Origin: an uncultured OCS116 cluster bacterium
Lineage (GTDB): Bacteria; Pseudomonadota; Alphaproteobacteria; Rhizobiales; TMED25
DNA: 64,000 nucleotides
NCBI GenBank assembly: GCA_902613795.1
Contig: CACMIP010000006.1
Location: forward strand, 1-64,000
Direction of reading: 5' to 3'
The notes under the pieces were generated by a model. It was not told the origin of the DNA. It ran no database searches and saw only the letters and a list, made by a program, of their open reading frames with translations. This document shows positions 2,211 to 64,000 of the stretch, in pieces. Positions within the stretch are counted from its first letter, which is position 1. Each line of letters starts with the position of its first letter. A program made the position numbers and the translations under genes.

Positions 2211-3473
2211 ATGAATCATATTTTCAAAAAATTTATTGTTGTTATTTCCCTTTTCCTGTTCAAGCCAGAAAACACCTATTCACTATCAATCAGTGAGCTT
2301 ATGACCATCACAAATGATAATAGTCTAGTTATTCAGGCTGACTATGAATACCTTAAAAAATTCCAAAACGATATTGAGCTTGCAAAGAAAAATAATGATC
2401 CATCTATTTCACTATCTGGATTTGTTGGTGCAAAACATCAAGAAACAGATAGTAGTGAAGCATCTTTCAATCCAAGAAATATAAGTCTTACAATGTCAAA
2501 AAATTTATTCGATGGTTATAAAACAAAATACTCTATAATACAGGCTAATGATCTATCCCTTCATGCAAACTATCTATTTGAGACATTAAAACAAAATGTC
2601 TACCTGGAGTCTATAAATTCCTACCTGGATTTAATTCACCTTAGGCAGTCATATAATCTGACAGAAAAAAGCTTAAAACTCTCAAAAAATAATTTAGATT
2701 TCAAAGTGCAACAACATAACTCAGGCGATATTTCAGATATTGAGCTAGAAAAAGCAAAACTTGAATATTCAAAATATAAATTCAGTCTCAACAAGATTCA
2801 GATTTCAATCTCCAATCAGGAGGACCAGCTCTTGGATTATTTGAGTACTGTTCCAAGTACAAATAAGTATCCAGACTTCATGGATAGAAATCTTGATTTA
2901 TCTTCGGAGGCATTAATTGAATTTGCCATCAACAATAACCCTTCAATCAAGTCCAGTCAGATTTATTTAAAAATTCTAGAGCATAGCAAGATGATTGAAA
3001 GATCAGCTAACTTACCAAAAGTAGATTTAGAAGCAGGATTTAGCAGAAATTGGGATGCAACGGACTCCGCTGGTCAAGCGGATGAGTACTCTATTATTGG
3101 AAGCATTAGTATACCGTTATATGAATCCGAGGAAGTGAATATCAAAGAGTCTAATATTGATCTTGACATAATTAGAAATGATAAAATTCTGAAGGACCAA
3201 ATCAACACTCTCAAAAGGGAAATAAATAGTCTGCTCGATCAAATAGAGTTGCTCAACACAGAATATGAAATTGAAAATAATCAAAAAGAAATATACGAAA
3301 AAGATATTGAAATCAATAAAGAAAGTTATAATGTTGGATCCGCATCAAAGCTTGATATTTATGATAGTCAAATTGAGTATAATGAGCATTTGATAAGCAT
3401 GGCTCAAATTATGAATTCAAAACAGAAGGCGCATTATCTTCTATTAAATAAAATAGGTAAACTAACCCAGTAA
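2211..3473 (+). CDS. TolC-family outer membrane efflux protein
   Basis: A 420-residue outer-membrane channel of the OEP/TolC family. It would form the trimeric exit duct for type I secretion or RND/ABC-type efflux. The N-terminus is a Sec signal (hydrophobic IVVISLFLF, cleavage near NTYS). The body shows the family's two long coiled-coil repeats with the typical SLSISELMTITNDNSLVIQADYE-like opening (about 24-46), the strand segment ISLTMSKNLFDGYKT and its second-half counterpart IGSISIPLYESEEVNIK. The C-terminal helix has GSASKLDIYDSQIEYNEH, a common TolC signature. It lies 49 bases after the Pcm-like gene and 24 bases before valS. No inner-membrane partner is adjacent. Confidence 0.88.
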   Translation: MNHIFKKFIVVISLFLFKPENTYSLSISELMTITNDNSLVIQADYEYLKKFQNDIELAKKNNDPSISLSGFVGAKHQETDSSEASFNPRNISLTMSKNLFDGYKTKYSIIQANDLSLHANYLFETLKQNVYLESINSYLDLIHLRQSYNLTEKSLKLSKNNLDFKVQQHNSGDISDIELEKAKLEYSKYKFSLNKIQISISNQEDQLLDYLSTVPSTNKYPDFMDRNLDLSSEALIEFAINNNPSIKSSQIYLKILEHSKMIERSANLPKVDLEAGFSRNWDATDSAGQADEYSIIGSISIPLYESEEVNIKESNIDLDIIRNDKILKDQINTLKREINSLLDQIELLNTEYEIENNQKEIYEKDIEINKESYNVGSASKLDIYDSQIEYNEHLISMAQIMNSKQKAHYLLLNKIGKLTQ

Positions 3474-3497
3474 AATTAACACCCTGCAGTACAAGTA

Positions 3498-6152
3498 ATG
3501 GAAAAGAAATATATACATCAAGATATAGAAAAGAGAATTTACTCACAATGGGAAGAGTCGAATTGTTTTTCTGCATCTACTGATATAAACAATCAAAGGG
3601 AAACCTACTGTATTGTAATACCACCACCAAATGTTACCGGTAACTTGCATATGGGTCACGCCCTAAATAATACACTTCAAGATATACTCATTAGATTTAA
3701 CCGTATGCAAGGAAAAGACGTATTATGGCAAGCTGGCACTGATCATGCCGGTATTGCTACACAAATGGTTGTTGAACGAAAGCTTGATAGCGAAAAGAAT
3801 TTAAGAAAAGAAGACCTTGGGCGAAATGAATTTGTCAATGAGATTTGGAAGTGGAAAGAGGAATCGGGTGGTCAAATAATTAATCAATTAAAGCGTCTGG
3901 GCTCATCCTGTGATTGGGAAAGAGAGAGGTTTACCCTCGATGAGGGTTTGAGTAAAGCTGTTCTTTATGTGTTTAATAAATTATTCGAAGACGGATTATT
4001 GTATAAAGATCAGAGACTTGTTAATTGGGATACAAAGTTTGAGACTGCAATATCCGATCTTGAGGTTCAACAAATAGAGATAGAGGGTAATCTCTGGTAT
4101 ATAAAATATCCACTACAAGATGATAAATCTAAATTTATCACTATTGCGACTACACGTCCTGAGACAATGCTTGGTGACACGGCAATAGCAGTTAACCCAA
4201 AAGACAAAAAACATAATATGCTAATTGGTAAAATGGCGATTATTCCTCTCTCGGGTCGTGTTATTCCAATAATTGGAGATGATTACGCGAAGATGGATGA
4301 AGGGACGGGTGCGGTTAAGATAACACCAGCTCATGATTTTAATGACTTTGAAGTGGGGAAGAGAAATAACCTTGAAATGCTCAATATATTGGATAAAAGC
4401 GGACATCTTGTCGATGATGATTTTATCCCAAAAAAATATCAAAAACTTGAGAGGTTCAGTGCGCGAAAAGAAATTCTCTCAGACCTTAAGGCTGAGGGAT
4501 CGCTTATAAAGACCGAAAAACATCTCCATAATGTTCCGCATGGGGATAGATCCGGCGTAATAATAGAACCATATTTAACAGATCAATGGTATGTTGATGC
4601 AAAAGAATTATCAAAAAAAGCCATTAAAGCTGTCAAAGATAAGAAAACACAATTTGTTCCAAAGAATTGGGAAAAGACTTATTTTGAGTGGATGGATAAC
4701 ATACAGCCATGGTGCGTATCCAGACAGCTATGGTGGGGGCATCAAATACCTGTATGGTATGGCCCTGATAACCATTTCTTTGTGGCCATGGACGAAAGTG
4801 AGGCTAAAGAAAAGGCATACAAACATTACGGTAAGGATACTGATCTCGTAAGGGATGAAGATGTCTTAGATACTTGGTTTTCATCCGCATTATGGCCTTT
4901 CAGTACCTTGGGATGGCCAGAAAAAACACCTGAGTTTGAGAAGTACTACAACACTGATGTGTTGGTCACCGGTTTCGATATTATTTTCTTCTGGGTCGCA
5001 CGAATGATGATGATGGGTCTCTATTTAACCGATGATGTCCCTTTTCATACGATATACATACACGCACTTGTCAGAGACGAAGAAGGTCAAAAGATGTCAA
5101 AATCGAAAGGTAATGTGATAGATCCGTTAAGCCTGATTGAGAAATATGGTGCAGACTCTCTAAGATTCACTCTTTCGTCAATGGCTGCACAGGGCCGAGA
5201 TATAAAATTAGCTGAGTCACGCGTTGAAGGTTATAGAAATTTTATTACAAAAATTTGGAATGCGGCACGTTTCATATCAACTTACAATATTATTCTAGAT
5301 ACAAATTTCGATCCAAAAACTGTTAAGCAGGACCAAAATAAATGGATACTTGGAGAGTTAGACAATTTAAATATGAACGTAAGTCAAGCGCTTGATAAAT
5401 TTCGTTTCAATGATGCTTCGGCAGAAATATATTCATTCACCTGGCACCTATTTTGTGACTGGTACATTGAGATTATAAAAGATGACATGACTCAATCGGG
5501 CAATGGCTCAATCGAGACAAAGCAAACGCTTATTTATACCTATCTCAATTTACTCAAAATTTGTCATCCCTTTATGCCTTTTGTAACCGAAGAGTTAAAT
5601 AGTATTTACACAGAGGAACAAGAGTTACTGGTTACCTCAAACTGGCCTAGTTTGGTCACCAACGACACAGTTCAATCAAAATCAGTCATAAATTTTTTAA
5701 TAGATACCATTACTGAAATCAGATCGATCCGATCTGAGTTAAGAGTTGTACCTTCAAATAAAATAAAACTCTTAGTTTTGAATGATACAAATGATTACAT
5801 CAATGTGCTAGTTGAGAATAATATTAAAATCCAAAGGATGGCAAGACTATCTAATATTGAGTATGTTGATACAATACCTGATAACGCCATCCAATTTAGT
5901 ATATCTGACATAGGTTTTGGGCTAGACTTAGAAGGTGTAGTAAATACAGAAGAGGAGCTCGCAAGACTCGATAAAGAATTGAGAAAGATTTTAGATGATT
6001 TGGCAATTGTTGATAAAAAATTAGAGAATAAACAGTTCCTTGATAATGCACCGCATGATGTAATTGAAAAACAAAAGGCTATCAAAGAGGATCTAACAAA
6101 CCAAAAAAATGAATTAGAGCACTCAAAAGAAAAGTTTATTAAATTGAGCTAA
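3498..6152 (+). CDS. valS: Valyl-tRNA synthetase
   Basis: This class I aminoacyl-tRNA synthetase charges tRNA-Val. At 884 residues it is of normal bacterial length. The HIGH-type motif is HMGH at 51-54 within PPPNVTGNLHMGH, and KMSKS is at 532-536. Between them lies the editing (CP1) domain with TTRPETMLGDTAIAV and GTGAVKITPAHDFND, which hydrolyses mis-charged Thr-tRNA. The C-terminus ends in the ValS coiled-coil arm (about 815-884, Lys/Glu/Leu rich) that contacts tRNA. The start ATG has only a weak ribosome site. It is followed, convergently, by the barrel gene on the minus strand. Confidence 0.98.
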   Translation: MEKKYIHQDIEKRIYSQWEESNCFSASTDINNQRETYCIVIPPPNVTGNLHMGHALNNTLQDILIRFNRMQGKDVLWQAGTDHAGIATQMVVERKLDSEKNLRKEDLGRNEFVNEIWKWKEESGGQIINQLKRLGSSCDWERERFTLDEGLSKAVLYVFNKLFEDGLLYKDQRLVNWDTKFETAISDLEVQQIEIEGNLWYIKYPLQDDKSKFITIATTRPETMLGDTAIAVNPKDKKHNMLIGKMAIIPLSGRVIPIIGDDYAKMDEGTGAVKITPAHDFNDFEVGKRNNLEMLNILDKSGHLVDDDFIPKKYQKLERFSARKEILSDLKAEGSLIKTEKHLHNVPHGDRSGVIIEPYLTDQWYVDAKELSKKAIKAVKDKKTQFVPKNWEKTYFEWMDNIQPWCVSRQLWWGHQIPVWYGPDNHFFVAMDESEAKEKAYKHYGKDTDLVRDEDVLDTWFSSALWPFSTLGWPEKTPEFEKYYNTDVLVTGFDIIFFWVARMMMMGLYLTDDVPFHTIYIHALVRDEEGQKMSKSKGNVIDPLSLIEKYGADSLRFTLSSMAAQGRDIKLAESRVEGYRNFITKIWNAARFISTYNIILDTNFDPKTVKQDQNKWILGELDNLNMNVSQALDKFRFNDASAEIYSFTWHLFCDWYIEIIKDDMTQSGNGSIETKQTLIYTYLNLLKICHPFMPFVTEELNSIYTEEQELLVTSNWPSLVTNDTVQSKSVINFLIDTITEIRSIRSELRVVPSNKIKLLVLNDTNDYINVLVENNIKIQRMARLSNIEYVDTIPDNAIQFSISDIGFGLDLEGVVNTEEELARLDKELRKILDDLAIVDKKLENKQFLDNAPHDVIEKQKAIKEDLTNQKNELEHSKEKFIKLS

Positions 6153-6167
6153 TTGATACGCAGTAAT

Positions 6168-7211
6168 TTAAAAATCATACATGAAGGATAGATTTACAGA
6201 GGGTGAAACAGTAATCCGTGAATCTAGATGGGCCGCCTCCGCCTGAGCCACGTATTCGGCACTATTGCAGTCCATACCAGTCGTGCATATTGGTTTTGAT
6301 ATAAATGGTAGGTCATTCCTTATATCAATCGATCCGGATAAAGAGATCACCGCACCTGACTCTAGTTGATTATTCATTCCAACAGCTAAGTTTATTATTC
6401 CCGCCACAGTAACTCTATCATCGTCTGCAGTGTATTTGTTTATGGAACCCCTGAAATTTTGTTCAGCTTGCATACTTTCTTTGGAAAGTAGAGCTGAAAT
6501 ATCAGCTTTATAATAAACATCAGTATTCTCGTTGAGGGATCCCTGATCAGACTCTAATCTGAGCATTGGTCCAACAGAAAATACACTAACCGAATCACTG
6601 GAGCTGCTATTTGCATAGCCAATAGCGTCATAGTCCCATCCTGAAGAGTAATGACTAATGTTAGATCTGAAGCCAAGCCTTGTTTCAAATTGTGAGTCTA
6701 ATTGCTGTAATAATTCATTTCCATTTAAATTTAATTCAGACAAATCCCAAAGGTGATTAAATGTTAAAACACTTAAATCTGATTCGGTGACCACAGTTAG
6801 AAGACCCCGGTCAGGAAGTTCAATTGAACCCAGTGATGATACTCCAGATACAGGAATTAAGTCTAGGTAATCGAAATTACCCTCGTTAGAAGTCTGGAAG
6901 TCAAAGTTTTCCTTTTGTGAACCGGTTATGAATGTAATATCAAACTTTCCCTCGTGAGAGACTGACACAGAGGGCTCATCAATGATCACATCTCCGTCAT
7001 CTTCGTGTGAAAAAAAATTGAAGGCATTGTCATCAACTGTTAAGCCAATAGAGTTGGATATTTTTAAATTTGGTATTGTGACACCAAATTTTAGTTCTTT
7101 TCCATTATTCTCAGTGATATCCACAGCAGGCGCATCGGCGGCATGACCAGTTGCTCCTAGTAATGGTAGTGCGAGGAGTGAATATAGAAATGTTCGTACA
7201 ATAAAATTCAT
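6168..7211 (-). CDS. Probable outer-membrane beta-barrel protein, unknown family
   Basis: I do not recognise the family. I place the start at the ATG at 7211, because the upstream in-frame codon at 7226 is TTG and the ATG gives a clean signal peptide (MNFIVRTFLYSLLALPLLG, cleavage near GHAA). The 347-residue product is Ser/Asp/Asn-rich with many alternating hydrophobic strands. It ends in SVNLSFMYDF, a C-terminal aromatic beta-signal typical of barrels inserted by BAM. One Cys pair (CTTGMDC) lies in a predicted loop near residue 310. It is transcribed away from xthA, 48 bases after that gene's stop, and converges on valS. Confidence 0.6.
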   Translation of the reverse strand: MNFIVRTFLYSLLALPLLGATGHAADAPAVDITENNGKELKFGVTIPNLKISNSIGLTVDDNAFNFFSHEDDGDVIIDEPSVSVSHEGKFDITFITGSQKENFDFQTSNEGNFDYLDLIPVSGVSSLGSIELPDRGLLTVVTESDLSVLTFNHLWDLSELNLNGNELLQQLDSQFETRLGFRSNISHYSSGWDYDAIGYANSSSSDSVSVFSVGPMLRLESDQGSLNENTDVYYKADISALLSKESMQAEQNFRGSINKYTADDDRVTVAGIINLAVGMNNQLESGAVISLSGSIDIRNDLPFISKPICTTGMDCNSAEYVAQAEAAHLDSRITVSPSVNLSFMYDF

Positions 7212-14255: not shown

Positions 14256-14867
14256 ATGAAAAAAAATTTCTTAAAAAAACTTGGTCTCAAATCAAATGTT
14301 AGAGTTTTAAATAATGACACTGCAGCTGAATTCGATGATTTGCATATTATCGAGGCAATAGTTTTCGCGAGTAGAGAGCCAATTCATATAGAATATCTAC
14401 TAACTAAAATCTCAAAATCCGATAGAGCTTACCTACATGAGCTAATGGATAAACTTAGAGCGCATTATGATAATCGGGGTGTGAACTTTGAATATAACGA
14501 TAATTATTGTGTCTTTAAAACCTCACCGATGATCAAGGCTGCCCTAGTGGATGAATTTGAAGAAACACGTGATCTCTCGAAAGCGGCGAAAGAAACACTC
14601 GCCATAATTGCTTATCATCAGCCCACAACAAGATCTGAGATTGAGGAGATAAGGGGGGTATCCTCAAGTAAGGGTTCGTTGGATATTCTGCTTGAATATA
14701 ATTGGATTGAAATTTCCGGAAAAAAAAATGTTCCGGGTCGTCCATTAGTGTATAGAACAACAAAAAAATTTCTTTTAGATTTTAATCTTGGTGATATAAA
14801 TGACCTGCCAAATCTAAGCGAGCTCAGACGAGAAGGTCTACTCTCTGGTTATGAAGATAACACATGA
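14256..14867 (+). CDS. scpB: Segregation and condensation protein B
   Basis: A 203-residue partner of ScpA made of two winged-helix domains. Visible motifs include IIEAIVFASREPI (about 31-43), SKAAKETLAIIAYHQPTTRSEIEEIRG and GRPLVYRTTKKFL near the C-terminus, all standard ScpB segments. It is immediately downstream of scpA. In many relatives tat genes follow; here an ABC ATPase gene follows 18 bases later instead. Confidence 0.94.
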   Translation: MKKNFLKKLGLKSNVRVLNNDTAAEFDDLHIIEAIVFASREPIHIEYLLTKISKSDRAYLHELMDKLRAHYDNRGVNFEYNDNYCVFKTSPMIKAALVDEFEETRDLSKAAKETLAIIAYHQPTTRSEIEEIRGVSSSKGSLDILLEYNWIEISGKKNVPGRPLVYRTTKKFLLDFNLGDINDLPNLSELRREGLLSGYEDNT

Positions 14868-16790: not shown

Positions 16791-18071
16791 GTGGCAAAAA
16801 TATCAAAGATAATGGGTCGTGAGATATTAGACAGTAGGGGAAACCCTACGGTTGAAGCAGATGTAACTTTAGATAACGGTGTTCAGTCACGATATTCTGT
16901 ACCTTCTGGAGCTTCAACTGGAATACATGAGGCTGTAGAATTACGAGACGGCGATGATAGATATAAAGGTATGGGTGTAATGAAAGCTGTTAACAACATC
17001 AATACCGAGATTAATGAATCCCTAATTGGCTTAAGTCCACTCAACCAGTCGGATATTGATAAAATGTTAGTTGAATTAGATGGCACAGAAAATAAAAGCA
17101 GACTTGGTGCAAATGCAATATTGGCTGTATCTATCGCAATTGCAAAAGCAGCTTCAATTTATGAAAATAAAAAACTGTACGAGTATCTAGCAGATAGTAA
17201 AGATTTTAAATTACCAGTACCGATGATGAATATTTTGAATGGAGGTGCACATGCAGATAATCCAATCAACATACAAGAATTTATGATAATTCCCGCTAAA
17301 TTTAATTCATTCCGGGAGTCTCTGAGGGCGGGTGCTGAAGTATTTAAATATCTGAAGGAAAATCTCAAATCAAAATCACTCGGGACATCTGTTGGTGATG
17401 AAGGTGGCTTCGCTCCAAATCTTGCAAGTACAAAAGATGCAATAGAAATTATTATCAAGTCAATTTCTGATGCTGGCTATACTAGCGGTAAAGATATTTT
17501 TCTTGCGTTAGACGCTGCCTCCAGTGAATTCTTTGAAGATAGTAAGTATCAAATAGAACCTCATGGAGATGCAGAAACCGTTGAAGGTATGATCAATTTT
17601 TATGAACAATTAATTAAAGATTACCCAATAATATCAATAGAAGATGCTATGTCTGAAGATGATTGGGATGGCTGGAAAAAATTAACAAGTTCAATCGGCG
17701 GCAAGTGTCAGTTAGTAGGTGATGATTTGTTTGTTACTAATGAGAAAAGGTTCTTAAAAGGAATAAATGCGAATATTGCAAATTCAATACTCATTAAGGT
17801 TAACCAAATAGGAACACTTACAGAAACACTAAATGCAATTAATATAGCAAAGAGCCATGATTATTCTTGTGTCATATCACATAGATCCGGTGAAACAGAA
17901 GATACTACAATTGCCGATTTGTCAGTTGCGACTAATGCAGGTCAGATAAAAACTGGTTCTCTGTCACGATCAGACCGCACAGCGAAATATAATCAATTAT
18001 TAAGAATTGAAGAAGAGCTTGGTGACAGATGTTACTATCCTGGCAGGAGTGAATTTAGTAAATATATTTAA
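16791..18071 (+). CDS. eno: Enolase
   Basis: A 426-residue glycolytic enzyme converting 2-phosphoglycerate to PEP. I start it at GTG 16791 ([21 protein letters not shown]), with AGGTGAAAG just upstream; a longer frame would overlap kdsA and adds residues absent from enolases. Key features are [23 protein letters not shown], the metal ligands in [17 protein letters not shown] and VGDDLF, and the [14 protein letters not shown] loop. The PEP produced is also a kdsA substrate. Order kdsA-eno-ftsB-pdh is the usual alphaproteobacterial one. Confidence 0.98.
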
Positions 18072-58860: not shown

Positions 58861-60306
58861 CTATAAAACAGTCTTGTGTGTTATAAATTTTGTATTCATA
58901 TACCCCTCAATACCTTCTTGACCGCCCTCGGAGCCATAACCCGAGTCTTTAACCCCTCCAAAAGGTGTTTCAATTAGTGCGATACCATGATGGTTAATTG
59001 ATACCATGCCGCTTTCAATCTGCGATCCTAATTTTTCCGCAGTCTCTGCAGAAGATGTATAGGCATATGATGCAAGGCCGTAATCGAGACGATTTGCTTC
59101 TTCTACGGCGCTGTCAAAGTCACTAAATGGTGTCATGGGGGCAACAGGGCCGAACGGTTCTTCATTCATCATACGCGCATCTAACGGCACATCTGTAAGA
59201 ACGGTAGGTTCAAAGAAATAACCCTCATTTCCGATCCTATTACCGCCAGTCCTTATTTTAGCGCCTTTGCTCACAGCATCACTTACAAAGCCCTCAATTG
59301 CTTCAACTCTTCGGTCATGAGCAAGTGGCCCCATCTGTGTTTCTGGGTCCAGTCCATTACCTATTTTAATTTTTTTAGACATATCTGTGAAGCGGTCCAC
59401 AAACTCATCATAGAGATTTTCGTGAATTAAAAACCTTGTTGGAGATACACATACCTGTCCTGCGTTTCGATATTTATTCTCGACGAGAACGTTCAGTGCA
59501 ACTTCTAGGTTTGCATCTTCACAAACAATTGCAGGGGCATGCCCACCAAGCTCCATGGTTACCTTCTTCATATGAGCGCCTGCTATAGATGCGAGTTGCT
59601 TTCCAACCGCTGTAGAACCAGTGAAAGTTGCTTTTTTGATGATAGGATTTGAAATTAAATATTCTGAAATCTCAGCTGGAGTTCCATAGACCAGGTTTAC
59701 TACTCCATCTGGAATACCGGCATCAGCAAAACATTTAACAAGGGCAGCGGTACTTGCTGGAGTCTCTTCTGCACCTTTAAGAATAATAGAGCACCCTGCG
59801 GCAAGAGCCGATGATATTTTTCTAACACCTTGATTTATAGGAAAATTCCATGGCGTAAACCCTGCAACAGGACCGACGGGTTCTTTTGTTACGAGTTGAT
59901 AAACACCTTCTGTTCGTGCTGGGATAACCCTTCCATATGCTCGCCTACCCTCTTCTGCAAACCAATCAATTATATCCACCGCTAGAGAAATTTCCGACTT
60001 TGACTGTTGTAATGGCTTACCCTGTTCTTGTGTTAAAACGGGTGCGATTTCTTTAACTCTTTCCTTTAAGAGACTTGCGACATTACGCATCATTTTATAT
60101 CTGCTAAATGGAGAAGTTTTTTTCCAAACCTCAAATCCAGATTTAGCAGCTTCAAGAGCTAAGTCCAGATCAGCTGTTCTTGCATGGGCAACCGCACCAA
60201 TTGGCTCCCCTGTAGCTGGGTTAATTACATCAATTGTTTCACCGCCAAGAGCGTCAACCCATTTACCACCAATGTGAAGTTTCGTATTTGGATAAGTTTC
60301 AGTCAT
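58861..60306 (-). CDS. NAD(P)-dependent succinate-semialdehyde-type dehydrogenase
   Basis: A 481-residue aldehyde dehydrogenase. Catalytic C286 (GQVCVSPTRF), general base E252 (VTMELGGHAP) and K177 (ILKGAEETP) are all present, and FTPWNFPINQGVRKISSALAAG is the cofactor loop. The closest-looking group is GabD/succinate-semialdehyde dehydrogenase by length and the C-terminal ETPFGGVKDSGYGSEGG segment. It heads the minus-strand unit with RidA and a hydrolase (10 and 5 base gaps). Glutarate or other omega-semialdehydes are alternatives. Confidence 0.88.
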   Translation of the reverse strand: MTETYPNTKLHIGGKWVDALGGETIDVINPATGEPIGAVAHARTADLDLALEAAKSGFEVWKKTSPFSRYKMMRNVASLLKERVKEIAPVLTQEQGKPLQQSKSEISLAVDIIDWFAEEGRRAYGRVIPARTEGVYQLVTKEPVGPVAGFTPWNFPINQGVRKISSALAAGCSIILKGAEETPASTAALVKCFADAGIPDGVVNLVYGTPAEISEYLISNPIIKKATFTGSTAVGKQLASIAGAHMKKVTMELGGHAPAIVCEDANLEVALNVLVENKYRNAGQVCVSPTRFLIHENLYDEFVDRFTDMSKKIKIGNGLDPETQMGPLAHDRRVEAIEGFVSDAVSKGAKIRTGGNRIGNEGYFFEPTVLTDVPLDARMMNEEPFGPVAPMTPFSDFDSAVEEANRLDYGLASYAYTSSAETAEKLGSQIESGMVSINHHGIALIETPFGGVKDSGYGSEGGQEGIEGYMNTKFITHKTVL

Positions 60307-60414: not shown

Positions 60415-61068
60415 CTATATTTTTCGTGATTCATGCTCATTAATTTTTTTAAGTTGTTCGAGCCTATAAATACCATGTAAATTATAGACGAAAATACCAA
60501 GCATGATGACATAGAAGATAAGAACGAGAAAATTAATCCCAGCAATATAGTTATAAAATCCGTGAACTATTATTGGGATTATCAAAGAGTAAATTATATA
60601 TTTCTCCCCGCCTCTGAACACATATAATCCAAAATAAAAACCCATTATTATTCCACACCCTGCATGTAATGGAATAGCAGTAAATGCCCTTATGAGCGCC
60701 AATGTACTAGCCTGCATTCCAAAATACTCAGCACTGTAGACATAATTAAAATTCTCCAAGGTAGCAAAACCAAGTGATATTAATGTACCGTAAACAATTG
60801 CATCCATAGGTTCATTAAAATCAATTTTATTTCTTAAGAATAAATATAGAGCAGTGAATTTAAGAGACTCCTCGGTAAGGCCTGCAAGATATGACATGTT
60901 GGTATCTCCTATCAGCATTGTATTAATGATACCGGCCGGAATACATAAAAATACACCAAGGAGAAATGTACGCCTGATCATATTCATAGGCTCAGGAAAC
61001 CTATCAGATTTGATGATGTAATAAAGAATAAGAAAAGGAGGAAATATCGTAAGAGCAATGAGTATCAT
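60415..61068 (-). CDS. PrsW-family intramembrane metalloprotease
   Basis: A 217-residue membrane protein with about seven hydrophobic segments. The family's active-site pieces are visible: EESLK (E66-E67, in LAGLTEESLKF), H135 in IPLHAGCGIIMGF and H169 in IVHGFYNYI. PrsW cleaves anti-sigma factors such as RsiW in Bacillus; other members act on unknown membrane targets. No anti-sigma gene is in view. It is the last of a run of small membrane-protein genes and starts 7 bases after the DUF2905 gene. Confidence 0.85.
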   Translation of the reverse strand: MILIALTIFPPFLILYYIIKSDRFPEPMNMIRRTFLLGVFLCIPAGIINTMLIGDTNMSYLAGLTEESLKFTALYLFLRNKIDFNEPMDAIVYGTLISLGFATLENFNYVYSAEYFGMQASTLALIRAFTAIPLHAGCGIIMGFYFGLYVFRGGEKYIIYSLIIPIIVHGFYNYIAGINFLVLIFYVIMLGIFVYNLHGIYRLEQLKKINEHESRKI

Positions 61069-61075
61069 AATAGTA

Positions 61076-61273
61076 TTATTTCATTAGATTGATGATTATC
61101 GTTAAAACGATACTGATTATAATACAAGTTACTACAGGAAAGTAGAATGAAGAATTGCCAAATTTGAAAAATAAATCGCCCGGTAGCCTGCCGAGTCCTA
61201 TCTTTTTTAAAAGAGGATAGATAAGCGCCGCAGTAATAAAAATAAGACCTATTATTAATAAAATCTTTTGCAT
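61076..61273 (-). CDS. DUF2905-like small membrane protein
   Basis: A 65-residue protein with two hydrophobic segments (about 4-20 and 44-63) joined by KKIGLGRLPGDLFFKFGNSSFYFPV. The GRLPGD motif and the FxFPV end of the loop are the DUF2905 pattern. Function unknown. It is 7 bases upstream of the PrsW gene and 19 bases after a 44-residue gene, suggesting one transcript. Confidence 0.8.
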   Translation of the reverse strand: MQKILLIIGLIFITAALIYPLLKKIGLGRLPGDLFFKFGNSSFYFPVVTCIIISIVLTIIINLMK

Positions 61274-61292
61274 GAATTACAACAAGTTAATG

Positions 61293-61427
61293 CTAATCAT
61301 CTTCTGTTTCTAATATTTTTTGGTGTCGATCAACAGTCTGCTCTAGTACATACAACTTATTCCATAACCATAAGTTCATAAGTATTAAACCAAAAATAAT
61401 TACGGTACCAAAATTACTAAATTCCAT
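61293..61427 (-). CDS. 44-residue single-helix membrane protein
   Basis: This short gene reads MEFSNFGTVIIFGLILMNLW then LWNKLYVLEQTVDRHQKILE and TEDD, then TAG. It has one membrane helix (about 8-22) followed by an amphipathic, heptad-like tail ending in acids. TAGGAGAAG lies 4-5 bases before the ATG, the clearest ribosome site in this run. It sits 18 bases after the 107-residue gene and 19 bases before DUF2905, in the same direction. No homologue is recognised; the topology resembles small regulatory or scaffold subunits of membrane complexes. Confidence 0.65.
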   Translation of the reverse strand: MEFSNFGTVIIFGLILMNLWLWNKLYVLEQTVDRHQKILETEDD

Positions 61428-61445
61428 ATTACTTCTCCTAAATTA

Positions 61446-61769
61446 TTATTGAAATTTCTTACGCATCCATGCCGTAATGGGCTTTCGGTATCTCAGTGTG
61501 AAAAATGTAACTATAAAGGCAAGCCAAAAGAATGAGTCCATCAATCGATTGAGATTTTCGGTTTGCGAAAAATCTATTGCAAAACACATTACTAGTATGC
61601 CTACCATTGCTGATATCAAAATATGTGTGATAGTTGTCTCCGGTTTTACGTCATTCATGCATATAATATAGTCACTTGTAAATATAAAAACAATGCAGAC
61701 AAATTGAATACTGGCTCTCTCATCTCTCTTTTCCGAGAGCACCCACAAACCGTATTTTTCAGCCTTCAA
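61446..61769 (-). CDS. Small membrane protein with three hydrophobic segments, start uncertain
   Basis: A 107-residue protein if it begins at the TTG at 61769, which overlaps the upstream gene by 11 bases; no ribosome site is visible there. An ATG at 61658 would give 70 residues but would lose the first hydrophobic segment (IQFVCIVFIFTSDYIIC). The other segments are ITHILISAMVGILVMCFAI and FFWLAFIVTFFTL, followed by a basic tail (RKPITAWMRKK). Family unknown. It belongs to the run of small membrane genes ending in PrsW. Confidence 0.5.
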   Translation of the reverse strand: MKAEKYGLWVLSEKRDERASIQFVCIVFIFTSDYIICMNDVKPETTITHILISAMVGILVMCFAIDFSQTENLNRLMDSFFWLAFIVTFFTLRYRKPITAWMRKKFQ

Positions 61770-62031
61770 GTGTTTTATATTTCTTTATTGTTTTTAATAA
61801 AACAAAACAGAATGTGAAACCAACAATGAAACTAAGACAATTTTGATCATGCAGAGGTTCATCCCACTCTCGTATACTAAATATATCATAATACCAGGAG
61901 AAATAACCCTCGTTTTCCTGAAATAATCTTATGAAAACAGTCAAGCTGAACGCAGCTAATAGACACCATATAAACTCAATTCTTATTTTTGATGCCGTGA
62001 ACAAGAGAAAAATATTTTTGAGTGTTCTCAT
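61759..62031 (-). CDS. Small two-helix membrane protein, unknown function
   Basis: A 90-residue protein with hydrophobic segments at about 19-36 (IEFIWCLLAAFSLTVFI) and 66-80 (LSFIVGFTFCFVLL). Between them is an acidic, aromatic loop (ENEGYFSWYYDIFSIREWDEP). The N- and C-termini are basic, giving a predicted exported loop. Its end overlaps the next gene by 11 bases. No family is recognised. Confidence 0.55.
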   Translation of the reverse strand: MRTLKNIFLLFTASKIRIEFIWCLLAAFSLTVFIRLFQENEGYFSWYYDIFSIREWDEPLHDQNCLSFIVGFTFCFVLLKTIKKYKTLEG

Positions 62032-62082
62032 ATGAGAATTTTATAAAAAATATTCTTTATGATCAATAATGGATTTCATGCC

Positions 62083-62388
62083 CTAACAAGTGATATTGTC
62101 ATTGTAGTATCCATCATCGTATGCGTACCCACTAGCATAACAATCTTCAATTATATCTCGAACACTACTTTCAAAAGAATATAATTCATACACGTCGTGA
62201 TTGTGATATTCATCTGCATAATCATAGTGGATATGTTCTGCGGTCCACCATTCATAGACATGGTCATGATCATTTCCATAGCTATTTGCGTCCTTTATGA
62301 AGTCTCCTTTAAAGAAGTGAATGTTTACTCCTACTATTCCAACAGCAATAATCGTTAATACGACTTTTGTGTATCTATCTATTTTCAT
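62083..62388 (-). CDS. Exported/anchored His-, Asp- and Tyr-rich small protein
   Basis: A 101-residue protein. A basic start and one hydrophobic segment (about 8-24, KVVLTIIAVGIVGVNIHFF) act as signal or anchor. The remainder is unusually rich in His, Asp, Glu and Tyr (NDHDHVYEWWTAEHIHYDYA, DEYHNHDVYELYSF, CYASGYAYDDGYYNDN) and has a terminal Cys. This composition suggests metal binding outside the membrane. AGGGGGC precedes the ATG. It is the second gene of the run after the large unknown protein, 52 bases downstream of it. Confidence 0.6.
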   Translation of the reverse strand: MKIDRYTKVVLTIIAVGIVGVNIHFFKGDFIKDANSYGNDHDHVYEWWTAEHIHYDYADEYHNHDVYELYSFESSVRDIIEDCYASGYAYDDGYYNDNITC

Positions 62389-62440
62389 TGTGCCCCCTAT
62401 TTGTGGTGAAAAATTTAATATTAATCGTCATACGACTTCC

Positions 62441-64000
62441 TTAGTTGTAGGAAAATGCGATACCATAGAGTGAACTTGCTTCATCGACTTGTAAAAGTTC
62501 GTGCGTTACCTGATCATATATTTTTACGCTTAAAGTTGCATCATCACTTGCATTTTGTGCAGATAAGTTAAAATTACGTGGTAAATCAATTACTAATGTT
62601 TGGCCTTCATATTCACCAAGATCTGTGAAGTTATAGAATTTTTTTTCTCTGGATTGATTATTTGTATCGAGAGTTATTGTTGTATCATTATACTCACCCA
62701 TGAAGCACACAGCTAAAGCAGTTTCGTTTCCAAACATGTCGCACGATATTTTGGCATAAAAAGGATAATCTCTAAGATATTCTTGTCGCGCAATTCTATC
62801 TTGTTCTGCCGCTTCTACCTCAGCTTCTTGGAAAAGTCTCTTTTTCTCATCAATTAATGTGCTTACCGGTAGTCCTCTCAATGATGCCTCTTCCTCGAGA
62901 GACAAGTAGTCATATATATCTTGATTTGTATCGAGGGAATAATCAGGTGTTTCGATTTGAGCATTCGCAATGTAATTATTGAGCTTTACTTTGGAGTCAA
63001 TATTATTTTTCAAAAGCTTTTCAAAAAGCACTTCGTCATATCCATAATCTACAAAAAAATTATAAAATTTTTCGTCTGGAATTGGAATTTTGTCGTAAAA
63101 ATTATCTATAGTTTGAATAGTTAAAACTTCCTCTTTAATAATTGTTTTGTCATCTTCATATTTAATTGTTTTCCTATCTAATGCCTTTTTAAGTTTTTCC
63201 TTATCCGCTAATGTTAAAAGCAAATCATTGCAGTTATATTCTTTTTTTTGCGTTACCTCTACAAACAAACTATTTATATCGCTGAAGTATATTGGTACAT
63301 AATTACCTTCCCATCTATCGATAATCGCGGCATCAGCTTGTATATTTGTTATTCCTTCAATAACACATGTACTTCCATAATCATCACCATCCGCTGGAGG
63401 TATATCCAACCATGAGATGCTATCTGGACTACTTTCAACGAGCTTCTGATATTCTATGGCTTGATTGTTTTTTGAAGAGATCAGAGACTCTAAAATTTCA
63501 CCTCTAGAGTAAAACTCTACATACTCCAAACCGCTATCGAGAGGGAGTTTAATACCTGAACGCGCTACAGTCCAGCTCCGCCCTGAGTATATGCAACTCA
63601 CGGGAGCAACTATCAAATCATAATTTGCAGAGTATTGCTGAATTGTATTCAAGCAACCGACATTATCTATTTTATATGAAGGCCCATATGGATCCTGAAT
63701 ATCTATATTTATTATTTCAAATTCATAAGGTTTGAAGTTAAAATATTCAACTGGTTGTAAAGTTTGTATATTGCTGATTATAGTTTGATTGATTGCATCA
63801 TTGAGCTCTCTGTCATATGCCGATTCAGTATTGCAGTTGGTATATATAAACACATCACCATCAGTAGAAAAAGTATCAACTAAAAATAGACCGACTTTTA
63901 CCACATCAGAGTCAAAAGAAAGGTTACCGTCAATATCCTCAATAAATTTAGCTGGCTTGTTACTCAAAAAAAGTGCTGAGTCAAGAACAATAGCCCCACT
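62441..64000 (-). CDS. Large unrecognised protein, N-terminus beyond window
   Basis: The frame stays open to the window edge. The first start inside is a TTG at 63967, but the preceding codons (SGAIVLDSALF) continue the same kind of protein sequence, so the gene probably begins outside. At least 519 residues are present. The visible part is acidic, with several Cys, a middle coiled-coil region rich in Glu/Arg (about ISTLIDEKKRLFQEAEVEAAEQD) and a beta-rich C-terminal part (TTITLDTNNQ, TLVIDLPRNFNL, LSVKIYDQVTHEL). A segment with YDLIVAPVSCIYSG resembles the core of periplasmic or subtilisin-like folds only weakly. Function unknown. Confidence 0.55.
   Translation of the reverse strand, partial: SGAIVLDSALFLSNKPAKFIEDIDGNLSFDSDVVKVGLFLVDTFSTDGDVFIYTNCNTESAYDRELNDAINQTIISNIQTLQPVEYFNFKPYEFEIINIDIQDPYGPSYKIDNVGCLNTIQQYSANYDLIVAPVSCIYSGRSWTVARSGIKLPLDSGLEYVEFYSRGEILESLISSKNNQAIEYQKLVESSPDSISWLDIPPADGDDYGSTCVIEGITNIQADAAIIDRWEGNYVPIYFSDINSLFVEVTQKKEYNCNDLLLTLADKEKLKKALDRKTIKYEDDKTIIKEEVLTIQTIDNFYDKIPIPDEKFYNFFVDYGYDEVLFEKLLKNNIDSKVKLNNYIANAQIETPDYSLDTNQDIYDYLSLEEEASLRGLPVSTLIDEKKRLFQEAEVEAAEQDRIARQEYLRDYPFYAKISCDMFGNETALAVCFMGEYNDTTITLDTNNQSREKKFYNFTDLGEYEGQTLVIDLPRNFNLSAQNASDDATLSVKIYDQVTHELLQVDEASSLYGIAFSYN

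Follow-up and report, generated by a model that had tools for sequence, protein, structure and literature searches.

The seven consecutive minus-strand genes at the end of the analysed window are two parts that meet: a conserved four-gene block, m70-s44-DUF2905-prsW, which includes the gene of a PrsW-type protease, and, upstream of it, a variable gene slot. The original prediction had read all seven as a candidate single module. That reading held for the four downstream genes, which form a conserved and selected block in five genomes, but not for the three upstream genes, which are not members; the seven-gene module thus becomes a four-gene block adjoining a variable slot. The window is the whole 64,000-base stretch of DNA that was analysed (G000:C6:1-64000). 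It reaches nearly to the end of its contig, C6, which totals 64,227 bases, and belongs to the 1.32 Mb genome (G000) of a streamlined marine alphaproteobacterium of the OCS116 cluster.

All seven open reading frames are present, in one direction and in the place described. The most downstream is prsW (60415..61068, on the minus strand like every other feature of the run), encoding a PrsW-family intramembrane protease of 217 aa; this assignment draws on PF13367 (97.3 bits against a cut-off of 23.5), on identity among relatives, on motifs and on dN/dS. Next upstream is the gene for DUF2905 (61076..61273), a protein of 65 aa with two hydrophobic segments and a full-length match to PF11146 (75.2 bits against a cut-off of 22.2). 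It is followed by s44 (61293..61427), encoding 44 aa with one hydrophobic segment and a charged C-terminal tail, and by m70 (61446..61658), encoding a 70-aa hydrophobic membrane protein. Beyond a gap come m90 (61759..62031; 90 aa, two hydrophobic segments) and hd101 (62083..62388), whose 101-aa product is, by hydropathy and composition, N-terminally anchored and rich in His, Asp and Tyr. The run is headed, as predicted, by a large secreted-type protein, but the window holds only the 3' part of its gene (62441..64000); the full frame of 572 aa extends to contig position 64159. Profile scans of all seven proteins against Pfam, NCBIfam, PHROGs and PADLOC gave matches above cut-off for PrsW and DUF2905 only. 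Both identities had been correctly called, as had the lack of a known family for the other five proteins, which have no Pfam or NCBIfam match above cut-off. The predicted gaps of 7, 19, 18, 51 and 52 bases were also right, but an overlap given for m90 is actually a 100-base gap.

The genus sample comprised 12 genomes, G000 and 11 others. A complete prsW was found in 5 of the 12, and in a sixth a fragment of the gene lies at the end of a contig; as several of the relatives are incomplete, the absences should be read as "not found" and not as proven. Each of the five genomes with a complete prsW has the order m70-s44-DUF2905-prsW intact, and the gaps measure 14-18 bases between m70 and s44, 19-20 between s44 and DUF2905, and 7 between DUF2905 and prsW; the end of s44 is shifted in G005. 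PrsW is 93-98% identical in the four other genomes and DUF2905 94-95%, its position unchanged. The s44 protein (89-100%) is always encoded between m70 and DUF2905, and m70 (57-90%) keeps its start. The dN/dS ratios of genus genome pairs indicate purifying selection on all four genes (prsW 0.03-0.06, DUF2905 at most 0.11, s44 at most 0.31, m70 0.08-0.21). The small proteins of the block are membrane-type by hydropathy, and the four genes are probably co-transcribed as an inner-membrane block; a promoter scan gave no signal above shuffle level. In several genome pairs, dS is lower for DUF2905 and s44 (61076-61427 and the equivalent stretch in relatives) than for prsW, and the s44 protein is identical between G000 and G001. 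The low dS hints at recombination inside the block.

The upstream edge of the conserved block falls in the 100-base gap before m70 (61659..61758). The original call of a 107-aa membrane ORF here placed the start too far upstream, since comparison with relatives gives a protein of 70 aa. Those genomes encode a 70-71 aa protein beginning with MNxxKPETT. Because of this common start, and because the DNA common to the genomes extends only about 45 bases ahead of it, the longer ORF can be put down to mechanical over-extension. In the alignment, these ~45 bases next to m70 are common to the relatives and the rest of the gap is not shared. No terminator-like site or hairpin was found between m90 and m70, the fold of this interval (z -0.45) being no better than that of shuffles.

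Upstream of this edge, gene content changes from genome to genome. The slot lies between an amino-acid ABC-transporter (aap) operon and m70. It is occupied by the large protein, hd101 and m90 in G000, by MORN-repeat genes in G007 and G010, and in G005 by a 102-aa gene that adjoins the aap operon; in G001, an unrelated island lies upstream of the block. Thus, prsW is present in four other genus genomes without the three upstream genes in front of it, and unrelated genes stand at their place in every relative with upstream sequence. Both hd101 and m90 are orphans, with no homologue in 60 other genomes. The downstream flank also varies: the neighbour of the block on that side is an aldehyde dehydrogenase gene (58861..60306, minus strand), which in G001 is separated from prsW by two inverted genes. 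The block remains whole despite these changes on both flanks. Since its order is kept in five genomes while upstream and downstream content differs, the block is the unit and the flanks move. Judged by gene content, the large protein, hd101 and m90 are accessory and not part of the PrsW unit, and the block itself is, as far as we searched, specific to part of one OCS116-cluster genus.

In G000 the slot would span a contig gap. The aap ATPase gene lies on contig C9, heading toward the contig end, and is nearly identical to the G007 copy; after it come homologues of the 102-aa G005 gene and of a 71-aa G007 gene. From the gene order in G005 and G007, we infer that position 1 of C9 faces position 64227 of C6 across a gap within the slot. 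Pairs of tRNA-Ser genes with anticodons TGA and CGA (L133, on G000:C9, 5595-5684 and 7130-7219; L012, 2298-2387 and 3520-3609; L013, in G001, 14582-14671 and 17444-17533) lie beyond the aap operon in G000 and G005 and beyond the island in G001. As the genes between and around these pairs differ among the genomes, gene exchange seems to be frequent in this neighbourhood, and the tRNA-Ser-flanked stretches near the aap operon and the block are likely an insertion hot spot. Between the two tRNA-Ser genes of L133, a 415-aa protein (5716-6963) has a hydrophobic N-terminus and, by eye, an HELVH motif; BLASTP found it unrelated to the large protein. The G001 island near the block (L013 13618-17431) encodes an AbiU-like protein (PADLOC, 107 bits), a protein with a weak Cas4-like nuclease match and, in an additional ORF, one that looks HNH-like by eye.

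Bacillus PrsW is the site-1 protease of the anti-sigma-W factor RsiW, which it cuts. The protein encoded in the block is like it in passing the family cut-off, in its size (~215 aa) and in the motifs EExxK, FATxEN and HGxYN/D. The core motifs are kept as E66 E67 xx K70, FATLEN at 101-106 (with E105) and HGFYN at 169-173 (with H169). E66, E67, K70, E105 and H169 are common to the order relatives and to a Priestia PrsW, a plasmid copy from the Bacillales annotated as such and 34% identical to the protein here; H135 occurs in the order relatives but not in Priestia. The differences from the Bacillus enzyme are that the protein falls below the NCBIfam equivalog cut-off for that enzyme proper (NF033739, 107.7 bits against 225), that its gene sits with DUF2905 and microprotein genes, and that no RsiW-type partner was detected in the genus. 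The family is expected to have about eight membrane helices. An AlphaFold2 model has eight helices, but it is of low confidence, with a mean pLDDT of only 68 from six input sequences. A fold search of the PDB with this model gave nothing significant (best APH-1B of gamma-secretase, E 0.16), a profile search of the PDB gave no match, and the viral contigs searched held no PrsW relative.

Most likely, the block is an inner-membrane operon specific to this lineage, in which PrsW acts on a membrane protein, perhaps a co-encoded microprotein. The two-part anatomy is shown with high confidence; our overall explanation, which is tentative, joins it to a mechanism in which PrsW, with its core catalytic residues kept, would cut a small membrane protein within the bilayer. 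The nearest candidates for the substrate or regulator would be s44, a single-span microprotein, and m70. On this view the block would be a local unit for the surveillance or turnover of membrane proteins and not an RsiW-type sigma-factor switch.

We place this functional reading a little above one in which prsW, DUF2905, s44 and m70 are separate membrane genes with no functional link, kept side by side by common descent in a compact (1.32 Mb) genome. Such an absence of linkage is doubtful in our estimate but a serious contender. The four-gene order occurs in one genus only, and within-genus order is weak evidence of a functional link, since synteny extends to the aap and aldehyde dehydrogenase genes on the flanks. 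Elsewhere in the order, PrsW and DUF2905 occur apart. Conserved order with PrsW in unrelated genomes, which the original prediction had named as support for a module, was not seen: the two genes are adjacent in none of the 286 order members outside the genus. DUF2905 was found in 32 and PrsW in 17 of the 297 order genomes, and outside the genus both occur in only 2, about the number that chance would give (1.3 expected from independent draws); in those 2, they are on separate contigs or 0.7 Mb from each other. The closest PrsW outside the genus, with 54% identity and from an alphaproteobacterial genome, has none of m70, s44 and DUF2905 in its vicinity, and the two annotated plasmid neighbourhoods, one with a DUF2905 match and one with a PrsW match, show no pairing either; a further plasmid match to PrsW came from Acetoanaerobium. 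Against coincidence by descent stand the short, near-constant gaps and a block that stays intact while both flanks change. In the outside alphaproteobacterium (L101 4675-6799), the prsW frame overlaps or abuts a ligand-gated-ion-channel-like frame directly downstream (NF033918 and TIGR00860, both below cut-off), and the two are a possible PrsW-channel gene pair.

A more specific form of the functional reading, that this is a sigma-factor-independent unit in which a dedicated protease cuts the co-encoded s44 or m70 with DUF2905 as its partner, is in our judgement unlikely. Slightly less probable still is that PrsW works as in Bacillus, performing the initial cleavage of a membrane-bound anti-sigma factor, with one of the small membrane proteins as the anti-sigma or its regulator. 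Family membership and the conserved core motifs would fit this, and the original prediction had drawn the RsiW analogy, which our searches did not bear out. No zf-HC2 anti-sigma factor was detected in G000 or the 11 other genus members, while the Bacillus subtilis control was positive, and the small proteins of the run match no anti-sigma family. G000 has three sigma-70 region-2 proteins, of which the single ECF sigma factor (~180 aa) adjoins a ChrR anti-sigma (TIGR02451, 170.8 bits against a cut-off of 124.5) with no strong hydrophobic segment; an ECF sigma factor with a membrane-anchored anti-sigma, as in PrsW-RsiW-SigW, was not found in this genome. This only ECF pair found in G000 corresponds to RpoE-ChrR, the singlet-oxygen system of Rhodobacter. 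It lies on contig C3, away from the prsW block, and G002 and G008, in neither of which prsW was found, keep the same pair. In Rhodobacter sphaeroides, membrane proteases of the DegS and RseP types help to break down ChrR, which is found partly in the membrane fraction and may sit at the membrane (PMC3818230); by this precedent, it is conceivable that a membrane protease acts on the one anti-sigma here. We consider it probable, from these gene inventories, that PrsW in this bacterium has a substrate other than an RsiW-type anti-sigma.

That the seven genes together are a module for envelope or metal sensing, in which the large protein would be an exported sensor, is very improbable. The genes do share a strand and short gaps, and the membrane genes are preceded by the anchored His/Asp-rich hd101 and by the large protein, whose N-terminal region has a signal-peptide-like hydrophobic segment. 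However, these three upstream genes are missing at this place from every relative with upstream sequence, and the 100-base gap separates them from m70. The suggested metal-related role would depend on a single orphan, hd101, which is absent from all relatives. The large protein also has homologues in other company: those in G002 and G008, genus members without a detected prsW, are 56% identical and have Sir2-family, AbrB-like membrane and epimerase genes as their neighbours, and those in G012 and G013, from the sister genus, are 41% identical with the N-terminal unit duplicated. The last 90 residues of the large protein are also present in a protein of G013 (426-aa frame) and in one encoded on a Caballeronia plasmid, its one plasmid match and confined to those residues; no phage homologue was found. 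This small C-terminal domain, which forms the end of the frame at L009 6442-8160 and is seen also at L091 5758-6345 and L096 near 3275-3631, has no Pfam match in the large protein. With a profile built from five members of the large-protein family, neither a Pfam family above cut-off nor a credible PDB match was obtained, and a single-sequence AlphaFold2 prediction reached a pLDDT of only 33. On this distribution, the large protein is family-restricted; it belongs to a divergent family of this lineage and is not a PrsW partner.

Least probable of all is that PrsW serves in the export or processing of toxins, with the slot genes encoding the cargo. A proposal for polymorphic toxins fused to PrsW gives it the role of releasing peptidase (PMC3482391), and the slot content is variable, but the 217-aa protein shows the PrsW domain alone above cut-off, with no fused C-terminal toxin domain, and the G000 slot genes match no toxin or defence family.

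A streamlined ocean bacterium without a detected RsiW-type anti-sigma keeps a PrsW-family protease, and two neighbouring microproteins offer testable candidates for its substrate. None of the papers searched mentions the name DUF2905. If the sigma-independent PrsW unit were real, it would provide the first functional setting for DUF2905.
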